Shown piece after piece: positions 38,436 through 53,187 of a DNA stretch of 64,000 nt (position 1 is its first letter; each line of letters starts with the position of its first letter). This DNA is from Gammaproteobacteria bacterium (lineage in GTDB: Bacteria > Pseudomonadota > Gammaproteobacteria > Pseudomonadales > JADFDG01). The position numbers and the translations under genes were made by a program. The stretch is taken from contig JADFDG010000002.1 of the NCBI GenBank assembly GCA_018262975.1, positions 157,523 to 221,522 of the forward strand. The letters are read 5' to 3'. A model generated the notes under the pieces. The model had not been told where the DNA came from. It did no database searches and was given only the letters and a program-made list of their open reading frames with translations.

Positions 38436-39605
38436 TCAGTACCAGACCGAGTAGAACAGCCGCGTGACCACCGCGTCGTAGCCGTACAACGGCTCGGCGC
38501 CCGGCGGCGCATTCACCCGCGCATCGCGGAAATCGGCGTACTCGAACTCGATGAAGTCCACCTTCAGGTTGAAGGTCATCTGCTGCCAGCGACTGGTCTC
38601 CGGCGCCTTGAGGATGTAGCTCGCGCCCACACCCAGCGTCAGCGAGTCGAACGTGGACAATTCCTTGTCGCGCGCCAGGTAGTTCTGCGCGTCGACGTAC
38701 GGGAACAGGTCGCTGTAGAAATCCGCGTGGCCCTGGCTGTAGGAGCGAACGCGCGCGTCCAGGCGCCAGTGCGGACCGAGGTCGCGGCTGTAGGCCAGCT
38801 CCACGTTCTGCGCATCGATGCCCCAGGTGTCGGAGAACACCCGGTACTCGGCACGCAGCGCATCCTGCCACGGCAGCTTGTACGCCAGCCGCAGTGCCAC
38901 CGCGTTGCTGGTGCGCGTTTCCGGGTACACCTCGGCCTGCCAGGCATAATCCAGCGGCGTGCCGTCGAGGTCGCGGAAATTGACGTAGCGCACCGACCGG
39001 TAGGGGTTGTTGAGGAAGCCCTGGTCGGCGGTGACATCGAAGGCCAGGCCCAGCACCGCGCGGCGGCTCAGCACCTGCGCGAAGTTGACCCGGAACGAGT
39101 GGCGATCGACCGTTTCGCCGAACGCCGCGTCACCGTTGCGGCGCACCTCGTCCTGCCCGAGCGCGTAGCTGAAACCCAGCGTGCTGAGGTCGCCGAAGAA
39201 ATCCTGGCTGAAGGAAAAGCCCATGGTGTTCGCCGAGTAGTCGCTCTCCTCGGAGTTGGTCCACGACAGGCCCATGGTGGTCTTGTCATGCAGGTAGTCG
39301 ACGCCCAGCGACTTCTCGGTGCGCTCCTCGGTATAGGGACTGGCGTTGGTCATCACGTCGATGGACGCGCTGGTGACCGAGTCGACGTAGTAGTTGGCCG
39401 ACAACGAGACCTTGTCCTGGAAATTCTTGCGCACCAGCAGCGATGGCCCTGAGATGTCCATGCCGCCGCCATCGTAGTGGTGATAGAGGGCGTCGGCGCG
39501 CTCCTCCGGCAGCACCGCCGCGCCGGCGGCAGCCGGCACCGCAAATACCGCGGCGACGGCACCGCGCAGCACCTGGCGCAGCGAATCGCGTTCAGTTGCA
39601 GCCAC
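38436..39605 (-). CDS. DUF3570 outer-membrane-type protein
   Basis: A 389-residue exported protein ending in an aromatic residue (RLFYSVWY), with alternating beta-strand pattern throughout (e.g. KVSLSANYYVDSVTSASIDV, MGFSFSQDFFGDL). It is therefore probably an outer-membrane beta-barrel. The signal peptide is LRQVLRGAVAAVFAVPAAAGA. The start is GTG at 39605: GGAGG lies five bases ahead, inside the glycine codons of the upstream gene, which it overlaps by 14 bases. DUF3570 genes are commonly found beside DUF4266 lipoprotein genes, as here. Function is unknown; it may be the outer-membrane terminus of this redox gene set. Confidence 0.88.
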   Translation of the reverse strand: MAATERDSLRQVLRGAVAAVFAVPAAAGAAVLPEERADALYHHYDGGGMDISGPSLLVRKNFQDKVSLSANYYVDSVTSASIDVMTNASPYTEERTEKSLGVDYLHDKTTMGLSWTNSEESDYSANTMGFSFSQDFFGDLSTLGFSYALGQDEVRRNGDAAFGETVDRHSFRVNFAQVLSRRAVLGLAFDVTADQGFLNNPYRSVRYVNFRDLDGTPLDYAWQAEVYPETRTSNAVALRLAYKLPWQDALRAEYRVFSDTWGIDAQNVELAYSRDLGPHWRLDARVRSYSQGHADFYSDLFPYVDAQNYLARDKELSTFDSLTLGVGASYILKAPETSRWQQMTFNLKVDFIEFEYADFRDARVNAPPGAEPLYGYDAVVTRLFYSVWY

Positions 39606-39816
39606 AACCGCCTCCACCGCCGCCTTCGGCGCCACGTGCGCCTTCGCGTGCCTGGTATACGTGGTGCATGTAGGTGCCTGCCACCGGGTCGCGGTCAAAG
39701 CTCATGACCGGCTCGGCCAGCAGGTTGCGCTCGTAGGGCGCCACCCAGGGCTTGAGTCCGCAACCGGCCAGCAGCATGACCGCGGCGGCCGGTGCGAGCA
39801 GGCGCAGGACGTTCAT
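39592..39816 (-). CDS. DUF4266 small lipoprotein
   Basis: A 74-residue lipoprotein. The signal peptide MNVLRLLAPAAAVMLLAGC ends with lipobox LLAGC. The mature protein contains WVAPYERNLLAEPVMSFD, HHVYQAREG and a glycine/cysteine tail. This matches the short DUF4266 family. The lone mature Cys pair in the Gly-rich tail (GGGCGC) could bind a metal or form a disulfide. Its ATG shares one base with the stop of the thioredoxin-like gene (TGATG), and its end overlaps the DUF3570 gene, so all three are translationally coupled. Confidence 0.88.
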   Translation of the reverse strand: MNVLRLLAPAAAVMLLAGCGLKPWVAPYERNLLAEPVMSFDRDPVAGTYMHHVYQAREGARGAEGGGGGGCGCN

Positions 39817-40313
39817 CACTCCATCACCAGTTGCTTGACCTGCTGGTCGTACTTCTGCTCGTAACCCGGCTTGTAGCCGCGGTGTACGTGGCGCACCTTG
39901 CCATCGCGGTCGATGATCACCGTGGCCGGCATGCCATCGACGCCGTAGAGCTTCGCCACGCTGTTGGCGCCGTCATTGAGGATGGTGAAACCGACCGGCA
40001 CGTCCTTCAGGTACTTGTTCATGCCGCTGGTGTCCGCCTCCACGTTCACACCCAGCAACTGGAAGCCGAGGTCCTTGTACTTCTTGTGGATCTTGTCGAG
40101 GTGCGGCATTTCCTGGCGGCAGGGGCCGCACCAGGTTGCCCAGAAGTTGATCATCACCACGTCGCCGCGCAGCTCCGCCAGGCGCACGTTCTTGCCGGTG
40201 GTGCTCTTGAGGGTGAAGTCGGGCGCCTTGCTGCCGATGGAATCGGCGGCCAGTGCCGGCAGCGCGGCGATCGCGAGCAGGACGGTGAGGAAAGTACGTC
40301 GGACGATGCGCAT
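39816..40313 (-). CDS. TlpA-like periplasmic thioredoxin
   Basis: A 165-residue exported thioredoxin-fold protein. The signal peptide (MRIVRRTFLTVLLAIAALPALA) is followed by SKAPDFTLKSTTG and the redox motif W61CGPC65 in INFWATWCGPCRQEM. The cis-proline is in GVDGMPATVIIDRDG. It may reduce haem-binding cysteines for cytochrome c maturation or serve the cysteine-containing partners around it. Its place among c-haem proteins favours the first idea, by inference. Coupled to the DUF4266 gene. Confidence 0.93.
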   Translation of the reverse strand: MRIVRRTFLTVLLAIAALPALAADSIGSKAPDFTLKSTTGKNVRLAELRGDVVMINFWATWCGPCRQEMPHLDKIHKKYKDLGFQLLGVNVEADTSGMNKYLKDVPVGFTILNDGANSVAKLYGVDGMPATVIIDRDGKVRHVHRGYKPGYEQKYDQQVKQLVME

Positions 40314-40339
40314 GGTGCGTCCCCTTTTCTTGTGTTTGT

Positions 40340-51904: not shown

Positions 51905-51905
51905 G

Positions 51906-52427
51906 TTACTCGTCCCTGAACTGGAGTTCGGCCTGCTGCGCGGTCGCATTGTCGACGATGCGCAGGTGCAGGTAACGCTGGCCTTCTTCCTTGGTGAATT
52001 CGTGGGTGGCGCCGCGACGCACCGGGCGGCCGTGGGCGTCGGTGCCTGCCACCACGGCAGTGACCCGGTGCGTGCCGGGCTTGAGGATGGTGGTGAGCAT
52101 GCGCTGGATGGCGCCGCGCTTGAGCGCATCGACTTCACGGGCGGTGTAGAGGTGGCTCTGCACGGGCTTGCCGTCGATCTCGATGGTCACGCTGTCCGGC
52201 ACCAGGAAGCGACCGACATCCAGCGACACGAACAGGGTGAACTGGGCATTCGCCGGGAACAGCAGCTCCTCCTCCATGATGAGCAGGCGCTTGTTCACGT
52301 CCAGCATGTCCTTCTTGAACTGCTGCAGGGACGCATCCAGCGCGTCCGCGGGCATGTCCTCCGCCCCGGCCGGCGCGGCGGCCCACAGGGCCAGCACCAG
52401 CAACAGACCCCGGCAACACTTGTGCAT
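51906..52427 (-). CDS. small exported protein, hypothetical
   Basis: 173 residues. Signal peptide MHKCCRGLLLVLALWAAAPAGA with cleavage near 22. The mature part has a helical segment (LDASLQQFKKDMLDVNKRLLI) and then a beta-sandwich-like domain (FTLFVSLDVGRFLVPDSVTIE, HLYTAREVDALKRG, GTHRVTAVVAG). This could be an adaptor for the TPR protein that follows one base later. No family recognised. The ATG at 52427 is chosen for the signal peptide. Divergent from the FecR-domain gene. Confidence 0.8.
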   Translation of the reverse strand: MHKCCRGLLLVLALWAAAPAGAEDMPADALDASLQQFKKDMLDVNKRLLIMEEELLFPANAQFTLFVSLDVGRFLVPDSVTIEIDGKPVQSHLYTAREVDALKRGAIQRMLTTILKPGTHRVTAVVAGTDAHGRPVRRGATHEFTKEEGQRYLHLRIVDNATAQQAELQFRDE

Positions 52428-52560
52428 TACTGCCCGCACGCGAATTCTCCCTGCCCGCCCGACTGCATTGACCGGCATTGTAGCGGGCGCTGGGCACGGG
52501 TTCCGTGAATCATGCACACTGTCGCCGCCGGATAATTCCACCCGGACGGAGGAATGCGCC

Positions 52561-53187
52561 ATGCGTCTGTTCCTGGCTGCCGCGGTACTGGCTTTCGCGC
52601 CGGTTGCCGTGCACGCGGTCGATGAGGGTCAATGCCGGGTCGGCAGCCTTGCACAAGTCCGGGGCGACGCCAGCATCGTGCGTGGCGGCAGCACCCGGGC
52701 CGCCCGCCCGGACGCATCCGTGTGTCCGGGTGACCGCATCGTCACCGGCGCGCGCAGCGTGGTCGAACTGCAGTTCCCGGACGGCACCCGCATCACGGTC
52801 GGCAAGGACAGCGAGCTCGCCATCGAGCGCTGGCAGGAGCGGCGCCTGCGCCGCAACGAGGCCGCTTTCAAACTTGTCAGGGGAGCGTTCCGTGCCGTCA
52901 CCGGCAAGCTCGCCGAGCGCCGCCACCGCATGGAGATCCGCACGCCCATCGCCACCATCGGCATACGCGGCACGGATTTCTGGGGCGGGCTGAACATCAC
53001 CCCGGGCGGTGCGCTGGACGTGGTGATGCTGTCCGGCAAGGGGGTTTACGTGAAGAACGACGCCGGCCAGGTGGAACTCACCGAAGCCGGCACCGGCACC
53101 ACCGTTCTGCCGGGTTCGCTGCCGTCGGCAGCGAAGACCTGGCCGCAGGAAAAGGTCGCGCGCGCGGTGGACACCATCACGCCCTAG
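52561..53187 (+). CDS. exported FecR-domain protein
   Basis: 208 residues. Signal peptide about 1-19 (LAAAVLAFAPVAVHA). A FecR domain fills residues about 45-200: DRIVTGARSVVELQFPDGTRI, KDSELAIERWQ, FRAVTGKLAERRHRMEIRTP and IATIGIRGTDFWGG. Unlike the anti-sigma FecR it lacks an N-terminal cytoplasmic domain and membrane anchor, so it is a soluble or surface-bound periplasmic protein. Such stand-alone FecR domains often accompany envelope assemblies. GGAGG lies about 8 bases before the ATG. It ends on a CTAG shared with the carotenoid oxygenase stop. Confidence 0.88.
   Translation: MRLFLAAAVLAFAPVAVHAVDEGQCRVGSLAQVRGDASIVRGGSTRAARPDASVCPGDRIVTGARSVVELQFPDGTRITVGKDSELAIERWQERRLRRNEAAFKLVRGAFRAVTGKLAERRHRMEIRTPIATIGIRGTDFWGGLNITPGGALDVVMLSGKGVYVKNDAGQVELTEAGTGTTVLPGSLPSAAKTWPQEKVARAVDTITP

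Follow-up and report, generated by a model that had tools for sequence, protein, structure and literature searches.

The window analysed here is a stretch of 64,000 nucleotides on contig C22 of a genome from the Pseudomonadales (Gammaproteobacteria bacterium), and positions are given within it. It carries two divergent gene arms for exported proteins, one headed by a relative of hydrazine synthase alpha (HzsA) and the other encoding further haem proteins, which together form a candidate envelope redox system. Such a system had been proposed from a sequence-only reading of the window, and that reading's account of the gene positions, of the 217 bp between the arms and of five CxxCH sites was confirmed. 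Some start codons were picked by eye (for example GTG for the DUF3570 and TPR genes), and signal peptides and lipoboxes were also judged by eye.

The arm on the minus strand consists of six genes whose ends overlap or almost touch. The first encodes an HzsA-like di-haem lipoprotein that combines a TolB-like propeller with hydrazine synthase alpha haem domains (41757-44432; HZS_alpha, 7.8e-15). It is followed by a protein with an SH3 domain and a barrel (40993-41757; SH3_3, E=9.1e-9; TIGR04565, 1.8e-6, below cut-off), an outer-membrane barrel of the TIGR04565 type (40340-41023; E=6.8e-47, above cut-off), a TlpA-like thioredoxin with a CGPC motif (39816-40313; redoxin profile, 6e-33), a DUF4266 lipoprotein ending in GGGCGCN (39592-39816; PF14086, E=1.7e-21) and a barrel-type DUF3570 protein of the ApbE-substrate family (38436-39572; PF12094, E=1.2e-35). 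The arm on the plus strand encodes, in order, a DUF1588/DUF1585-like mono-haem exported protein (44650-45876), a LamG di-haem lipoprotein (45879-48359; Laminin_G_3, E=5e-20) and a DUF1501-like exported protein of the Tat (twin-arginine) type (48371-49993), in which the arginine pair R29 R30 is invariant across a 28-row alignment. The names of the first and third of these proteins are weak labels, to be used as leads, because the DUF1588-like protein scored below threshold with both relevant profiles (PSD2/DUF1585, 23.3 bits, cut-off 25.8; PSCyt3/DUF1588, 14.2, cut-off 27) and the DUF1501-like protein had no meaningful Pfam match, DUF1501 included, among 28 family members scanned. Beyond this arm, on the minus strand, lie a TPR gene (50015-51904; TPR profile, 1.8e-7) and a gene for a small exported protein (51906-52427). 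Pfam and NCBIfam scans gave no match to the latter, which has a paralogue with 32% identity on contig C11 of the same genome; both genes are assigned here by their context in relatives, where they occupy the first-TPR and first-gene positions of Glt-type motor operons.

Six peptide patterns taken from the HzsA-like protein were used to scan a collection of species genomes and yielded 57 confirmed loci. By title, 50 are gammaproteobacterial, three are labelled Proteobacteria only, one is Rivibacter, two are metagenome-assembled genomes of Rhodospirillaceae and one is Chloroflexi (hand count); the Rhodospirillaceae and Chloroflexi records are perhaps mis-binned. When 16 window proteins were compared with these loci by tblastn, both arms proved to be conserved. 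Within the 37 loci that offer at least 6.5 kb upstream, the DUF1588-like gene was found in 36, the LamG gene in 36 and the DUF1501-like gene in 35. Downstream, 46 loci offer 4 kb or more, and these contained the SH3-barrel gene (45/46), the barrel gene (44/46), TlpA (41/46), DUF4266 (44/46) and DUF3570 (44/46). The small exported protein was encoded at 25 of all 57 loci and the TPR protein at 24, and of the 27 loci that extend 9.9 kb to either side, 17 had one or both. Matches named 'Prx' in 18 loci are thought to be cross-matches with TlpA and were not used.

Co-occurrence was then scored in 369 Gammaproteobacteria genomes, the window's own included. The HzsA-like gene was present in 52 and the DUF1501-like gene in 50, with both in 45 (Fisher p 1.5e-44, uncorrected for relatedness); about one in seven sampled Gammaproteobacteria carries the set. 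Counted by hand at the genus level, 37 of the 42 HzsA genera also have the DUF1501-like gene, and in 34 of the 45 genomes with both genes the two lie within 12 kb of each other. The arms are nevertheless separable, which tells against a fixed set: 7 of the 52 HzsA genomes have no DUF1501-like gene and 5 of the 50 DUF1501-like genomes no HzsA-like gene. Five of the seven HzsA genomes concerned have an ApbE match on the strand of HzsA, ending 0.2 to 0.4 kb upstream of it. The haem arm (DUF1588-LamG-DUF1501) was found with no HzsA-like gene in the stretch fetched at L137, L138 and L140, and at L139 it diverges from SH3-barrel, TlpA and DUF4266 genes, again with no HzsA. The proposal that the two arms belong together is borne out by synteny, by co-occurrence and by the common promoter box described below. 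As for the adjacent genes that had been included, the small exported gene and the TPR gene are found again in relatives, and the stand-alone FecR gene was found at none of the 57 loci. FecR, the carotenoid oxygenase and PadR were each considered as parts of the system and rejected on the same count (0/57). Taken together, these data make it very probable that the two arms, the TPR gene and the small exported gene constitute one conserved system.

The divergent gap (44433-44649) is 217 bp long, separates start codons at 44432 and 44650, and contains a CRP-type box, TGTGA-N6-TCACA, at 44563-44578. From 48 gaps extracted, 34 non-redundant divergent gaps were retained, that of the window among them. 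The box was found with at most two mismatches in 32 of the 34, compared with a mean of 6.1 and a maximum of 11 in 100 dinucleotide shuffles; the window copy, which agrees with the consensus at 8/10 positions, is among the weaker of the set. This test was not blind, because it was word enrichment in these very gaps that first drew attention to the box. The control with altered spacing is blind: CRP-like halves separated by 5 nucleotides occurred in 4/34 gaps and by 7 in 5/34. An FNR-like box was found in 10/34 gaps (shuffle mean 7.2, maximum 13) and a Fur-like pattern in 0/34, and a sigma-70 scan of the 217-bp gap found none. The genome itself encodes three Crp-type matches. The two arms share a conserved CRP-type box, a putative regulator site.

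The cofactor and thiol sites are conserved as well. The five CxxCH motifs lie at residues 600 and 739 of the HzsA-like protein, 248 of the DUF1588-like protein and 72 and 188 of the LamG protein. Among aligned relatives that cover each site, they are kept in 56/56 and 54/55 for the HzsA-like protein (in the whole alignment, 9 of 59 rows show one CxxCH or none, and contig ends truncate several of the nine), in 48/48 for the DUF1588-like protein and in 49/49 at each LamG site. The CxxC of TlpA is kept in 50/50 relatives, and the GGGCGCN end of DUF4266 in 45 of 51 open reading frames, the other six being cut or misframed by the script. Where the haem arm is missing, the gene between HzsA and SH3-barrel encodes a lipoprotein of about 170 residues that contains CxxxxCH, a possible haem site (L135 10674-11177; L136 11295-11810; L141 13726-14250; L142 7229-7738), and matches to it were also found in L058, L059, L099 and L139. 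If this protein binds haem, a lipoprotein with haem may always accompany HzsA in the system.

An AlphaFold2 model of the HzsA-like protein, built from 35 sequences (predicted local distance difference test score, pLDDT, 84.0), was superimposed on hydrazine synthase alpha (5c2v_A) with Z 33.2 over 597 residues, a root-mean-square deviation of 3.6 and 21% identity. The match covers almost the full length of the model, and the next-best family was TolB, by way of the propeller, at a Z of about 25. A profile search with the HzsA-like protein retrieved 5c2v at E=5e-19, with the segment of the first haem contributing 32 bits and that of the second in register with a score below zero. The model thus indicates that the protein has the whole hydrazine synthase alpha fold. 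Its score with the hydrazine synthase alpha equivalog NF052339 was 36.7 bits against a cut-off of 800, and a scan of 13 window proteins gave no match to hzsB or hzsC relatives, no genome-wide search having been made. In hydrazine synthase itself, haem alpha-I has special iron and zinc ligands. The model of the DUF1501-like protein (28 sequences, pLDDT 80.7) matched enzymes of the alkaline-phosphatase superfamily, with a best Z of 11.7. The 50 fold matches listed were phosphatases, phosphodiesterases, sulfatases, phosphoglycerate mutases or phosphoethanolamine transferases, apart from one named only PH0037; Foldseek alone gave no match under E 0.001. The DUF1501 family is one that we take to belong to this superfamily, and the predicted fold is the sole support for the DUF1501-like label.

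In relatives, the small exported and TPR genes open an operon that runs on into a proton motor of the Glt/Tol type, related to the gliding motor of Myxococcus. Onward from these two genes it encodes a large TPR protein, a TPR lipoprotein, a protein of about 100 residues, ExbB, two ExbD and a transducer of the AgmX/PglI type. At two loci of Candidatus Thiodiazotropha (L068, L071), AgmX is followed by ApbE. In genome G057 the genes form a single 17-gene run on one strand (L141), in the order ApbE-HzsA-lipoprotein-SH3-barrel-barrel-TlpA-DUF4266-DUF3570-small-TPR-TPR-TPR-small-ExbB-ExbD-ExbD-AgmX; the haem arm is absent from this run and the DUF1501-like gene lies far away. All three parts, HzsA arm, haem arm and motor, are on one contig in Alteromonas facilis, and Rivibacter subsaxonicus has the HzsA arm and the motor with no haem arm. 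The sequence-only reading, which saw the window alone, had missed that a Glt-type motor and ApbE adjoin the system in relatives. As to family assignment, the transducer of L068 passed the cut-off for the myxo_SS_tail domain (74.7, cut-off 40) and failed that for GltG (58.5, cut-off 650), and the TPR lipoprotein scored 49.8 with GltE, below the cut-off of 225. A transducer of the AgmX type is present in 49 of 52 HzsA genomes compared with 36 of 317 others (Fisher p 5.4e-34, uncorrected for relatedness) and in 39 of 42 HzsA genera (hand count); in 23 of the 49 genomes it is no more than 25 kb from HzsA. The window's own genome (99.95% complete) has one motor operon, on contig C11, with small-exported and TPR paralogues of its own. 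Separately, in Hahella sp. CCB-MM4 a second, diverged HzsA-like gene (L073 6250-9246) was found immediately downstream of AgmX in another motor operon.

That the motor is dedicated to the cassette was considered and rejected, since large-TPR proteins from loci with and without the cassette are intermixed in their tree; the tree has 10 label changes, compared with 13.7 in shuffles, which amounts to some clustering. The dependence is one-sided, as motors occur without the cassette and intermix with the others, and the cassette would appear to be one client of a motor of general use.

ApbE is present in 52/52 HzsA genomes and within 25 kb of HzsA in 25 of them. In an ApbE tree of 43 rows, all 23 linked rows (two identical pairs among them) fall in one clade of 30 rows (support 100/99), together with seven unlinked rows. 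The window had been said to contain no ApbE, and indeed the two ApbE genes of its genome are on contigs C3 and C27. The one on C27 (L062 = C27:61000-80000, at about 9173-15565) lies with DUF4266, a TlpA match and two DUF3570 matches and has a DsbD-type gene nearby, which looks like a canonical-type flavin cluster; profile scans of an open reading frame there (L062:12256-14484, minus strand) gave no match, as it is a wrong-strand frame over the DsbD-type gene. The stand-alone ApbE on C3 was tried as the cognate enzyme and is not supported by the tree, a result to be taken with caution since both of the genome's own sequences are long branches and the tree had only 43 rows. Judged from sequence, the window's genome seems to have no ApbE of the system type. 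The acceptor motifs of the window DUF3570 protein are TSAS and TNAS, so that neither is the canonical [S/T]GA[S/T] and both keep the acceptor residue. At motif 1, a serine or threonine occupies the acceptor position in 48/48 scored proteins, the window's included; only motif 1 tests the acceptor, because the motif-2 pattern demanded a final serine. Two rows were left out of the scoring, L053 (truncated) and L027. None of the eight scored ApbE-adjacent DUF3570 proteins has the canonical motif; with L027, which is ApbE-adjacent and has TGAS at motif 2, the count becomes 1/9. That flavinylation was lost through loss of the acceptor is thus rejected in part: acceptor serines are kept, and the glycine is lost in most proteins, ApbE-adjacent ones included. 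The DUF3570 protein of the window would be either unflavinylated or served by a non-cognate ApbE.

Several known systems share features with this one. In the passages on them in Meheust et al. 2021 (PMC8238504), DUF3570 is a shown substrate of ApbE, clusters of ApbE, DUF3570, thioredoxin and DUF4266 occur with or without DsbD, and the TlpA/DUF4266 set is a proposed electron relay in other bacteria. The adjacency of TlpA, DUF4266 and DUF3570, the CxC end of DUF4266 and, in some relatives, an adjoining ApbE are all found here; in contrast, the HzsA-like protein, the barrel pair, the haem arm and the motor are additions, the window cluster has no ApbE or DsbD beside it, and the [S/T]GA[S/T] glycine is mostly lost. 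Luciano et al. 2011 (PMC3169522) regard the gammaproteobacterial Glt core as a functional complex, without a known role. With the Agl/Glt core the relatives share ExbB, two ExbD, the AgmX/PglI-type transducer and TPR proteins; here, however, these are tied to a haem/flavin cassette, the scores lie far below the Myxococcus equivalog cut-offs, and the window itself has only the small exported and TPR proteins. The HzsA-like protein resembles hydrazine synthase alpha in its whole predicted fold and in two CxxCH in corresponding order, and differs in its sequence (about 21% identity), its lipid anchor, its gene context and the lack of a beta or gamma gene nearby. Planctomycete-type PSCyt/PSD proteins offer a DUF1585/1588-like haem protein, LamG combined with haem and a neighbour of an unknown family, as in the PSCyt genes found beside unknown families in Verrucomicrobia; here the profiles are sub-threshold, and a divergent arm and a motor link are not described in the section on these proteins (PMC5615132). 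A scan of the window's genome with PF07635 gave no match, and its control also matched nowhere. Tol-Pal likewise has a TolQ/TolR-type proton motor, TPR proteins and a TolB-like propeller, whereas the propeller here carries haem domains and a lipid anchor and no Pal was among the genes found. We found no paper in the open-licence PMC literature that joins the parts of the haem/flavin cassette with the motor.

From the observed gene content, linkage, folds and motifs we infer a flow of electrons, its direction, a substrate and a mechanical coupling. Electrons would pass from a DsbD-type transporter to TlpA, on to the CxC end of DUF4266 and to flavin mononucleotide on DUF3570, and from this flavin to the haems of the HzsA-like protein and of the haem lipoproteins, or in the reverse direction. 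The motor, through the AgmX-type transducer and the TPR proteins, might move or open the outer-membrane assembly; the window's species would use its C11 motor for this. The LamG or phosphatase-fold proteins may hold something at the surface, which would be redox-modified there. The best reading, to which we assign a probability of roughly 0.45, is that the cassette encodes an outer-membrane thiol-flavin-haem redox complex that is a client of a Glt-type motor. The earlier idea of an envelope redox system thus holds for the arms as one unit, and an electron path as such keeps its conjectural standing. A tighter version is possible if doubtful: motor and redox complex of the outer membrane would form a single, mechanically coupled machine of a new kind, with a propeller-bearing (TolB-like) relative of hydrazine synthase alpha at its centre, and movement driven by protons would be one and the same process as electron transfer at the surface.

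A number of observations weigh against a redox client of the motor. Electron transfer, outer-membrane location and motor contact are predictions from gene content, linkage, folds and motifs. The window holds neither ApbE nor any ExbB/TolQ, ExbD/TolR or AgmX/PglI-type transducer, and neither ApbE of its genome falls in the linked clade, both being long branches. Most DUF3570 proteins have lost the flavinylation glycine, with the canonical [S/T]GA[S/T] in either motif in only 12/48. The set itself is not complete everywhere, as TlpA is missing in L025, L030 and L050, and L036 is without everything from barrel to DUF3570 beside HzsA. The AgmX-type transducer also occurs in 36 genomes without HzsA, 15 motor loci from such genomes (one cut short) had no HzsA, DUF3570 or barrel-pair match in the fetched stretches, and the large-TPR tree mixes motors with and without the cassette. 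Because the motor occurs without the cassette and the tree is intermixed, part of the co-occurrence could be due to a shared habitat and not to contact, and the Fisher tests ignore kinship among genomes.

The adjoining Glt-type motor and the LamG and alkaline-phosphatase-fold proteins would also fit a biogenesis machine, in which the motor, working like Nfs or Glt of Myxococcus, moves a polymer or coat of the surface or puts it together, and the cassette oxidatively matures or cross-links the material and is no electron conduit for energy or metals; Nfs, a Glt paralogue, serves in spore-coat assembly (PMC3169522; see also PMC3858216). However, no polymer synthesis or export genes recur among the clusters of open reading frames inspected in the flanks of the 57 loci, and five haems with an ApbE-type relay exceed the obvious needs of a cross-linker, so we regard this explanation as rather unlikely. 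If instead the motor link reflected habitat or outer-membrane upkeep, the cassette could be a separate electron-transfer unit whose acceptor or donor (metal, oxygen or organic) is extracellular or periplasmic. The intermixed motor trees are consistent with this, as is the lack of a motor within 25 kb in the window and in about half of the genomes, and DUF3570 clusters are tied to redox and in some cases to iron transport in the relevant part of PMC8238504. It is unlikely, since HzsA lacks the transducer in only 3/52 genomes and several lineages have a contiguous operon with the motor.

The full-length hydrazine synthase alpha fold, with both haem sites, also raises the question of an enzyme of nitrogen chemistry (NO, hydroxylamine or ammonium) in detoxification or catabolism, and hydrazine-synthase-like genes outside anammox are proposed, in the part of PMC10732223 devoted to them, to form a wider family with other substrates. 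The equivalog score far under its cut-off and the failure to find hzsB or hzsC relatives among the 13 window proteins scanned, with no genome-wide search made, render this explanation very improbable.

Two questions meet in this cassette: Luciano et al. left the function of the gammaproteobacterial Glt core open, and Meheust et al. that of the DUF3570 flavin systems. Alteromonas facilis and Rivibacter subsaxonicus are isolates in which cassette and motor adjoin. If the single-machine version were true, it would supply a client and a first function for part of the orphan Glt cores of Gammaproteobacteria. Most Gammaproteobacteria are not known to glide. A practical caution is that HzsA relatives, present in 52/369 genomes, may pass for anammox markers in loose metagenome annotation.

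Among the neighbouring genes, the stand-alone FecR-domain protein (52561-53187, plus strand; FecR profile, 4.3e-15), which is outside the system, has weak matches to Leptospira surface adhesin models. It is followed by a carotenoid cleavage oxygenase of the RPE65 type (53184-54626, minus strand), beside a gene at 54761-55381 (plus strand) that by eye resembles one for a PadR-type regulator. Elsewhere in the window, two small open reading frames at 11510-12141 (minus strand) appear by eye to encode a PIN-domain toxin and its antitoxin.

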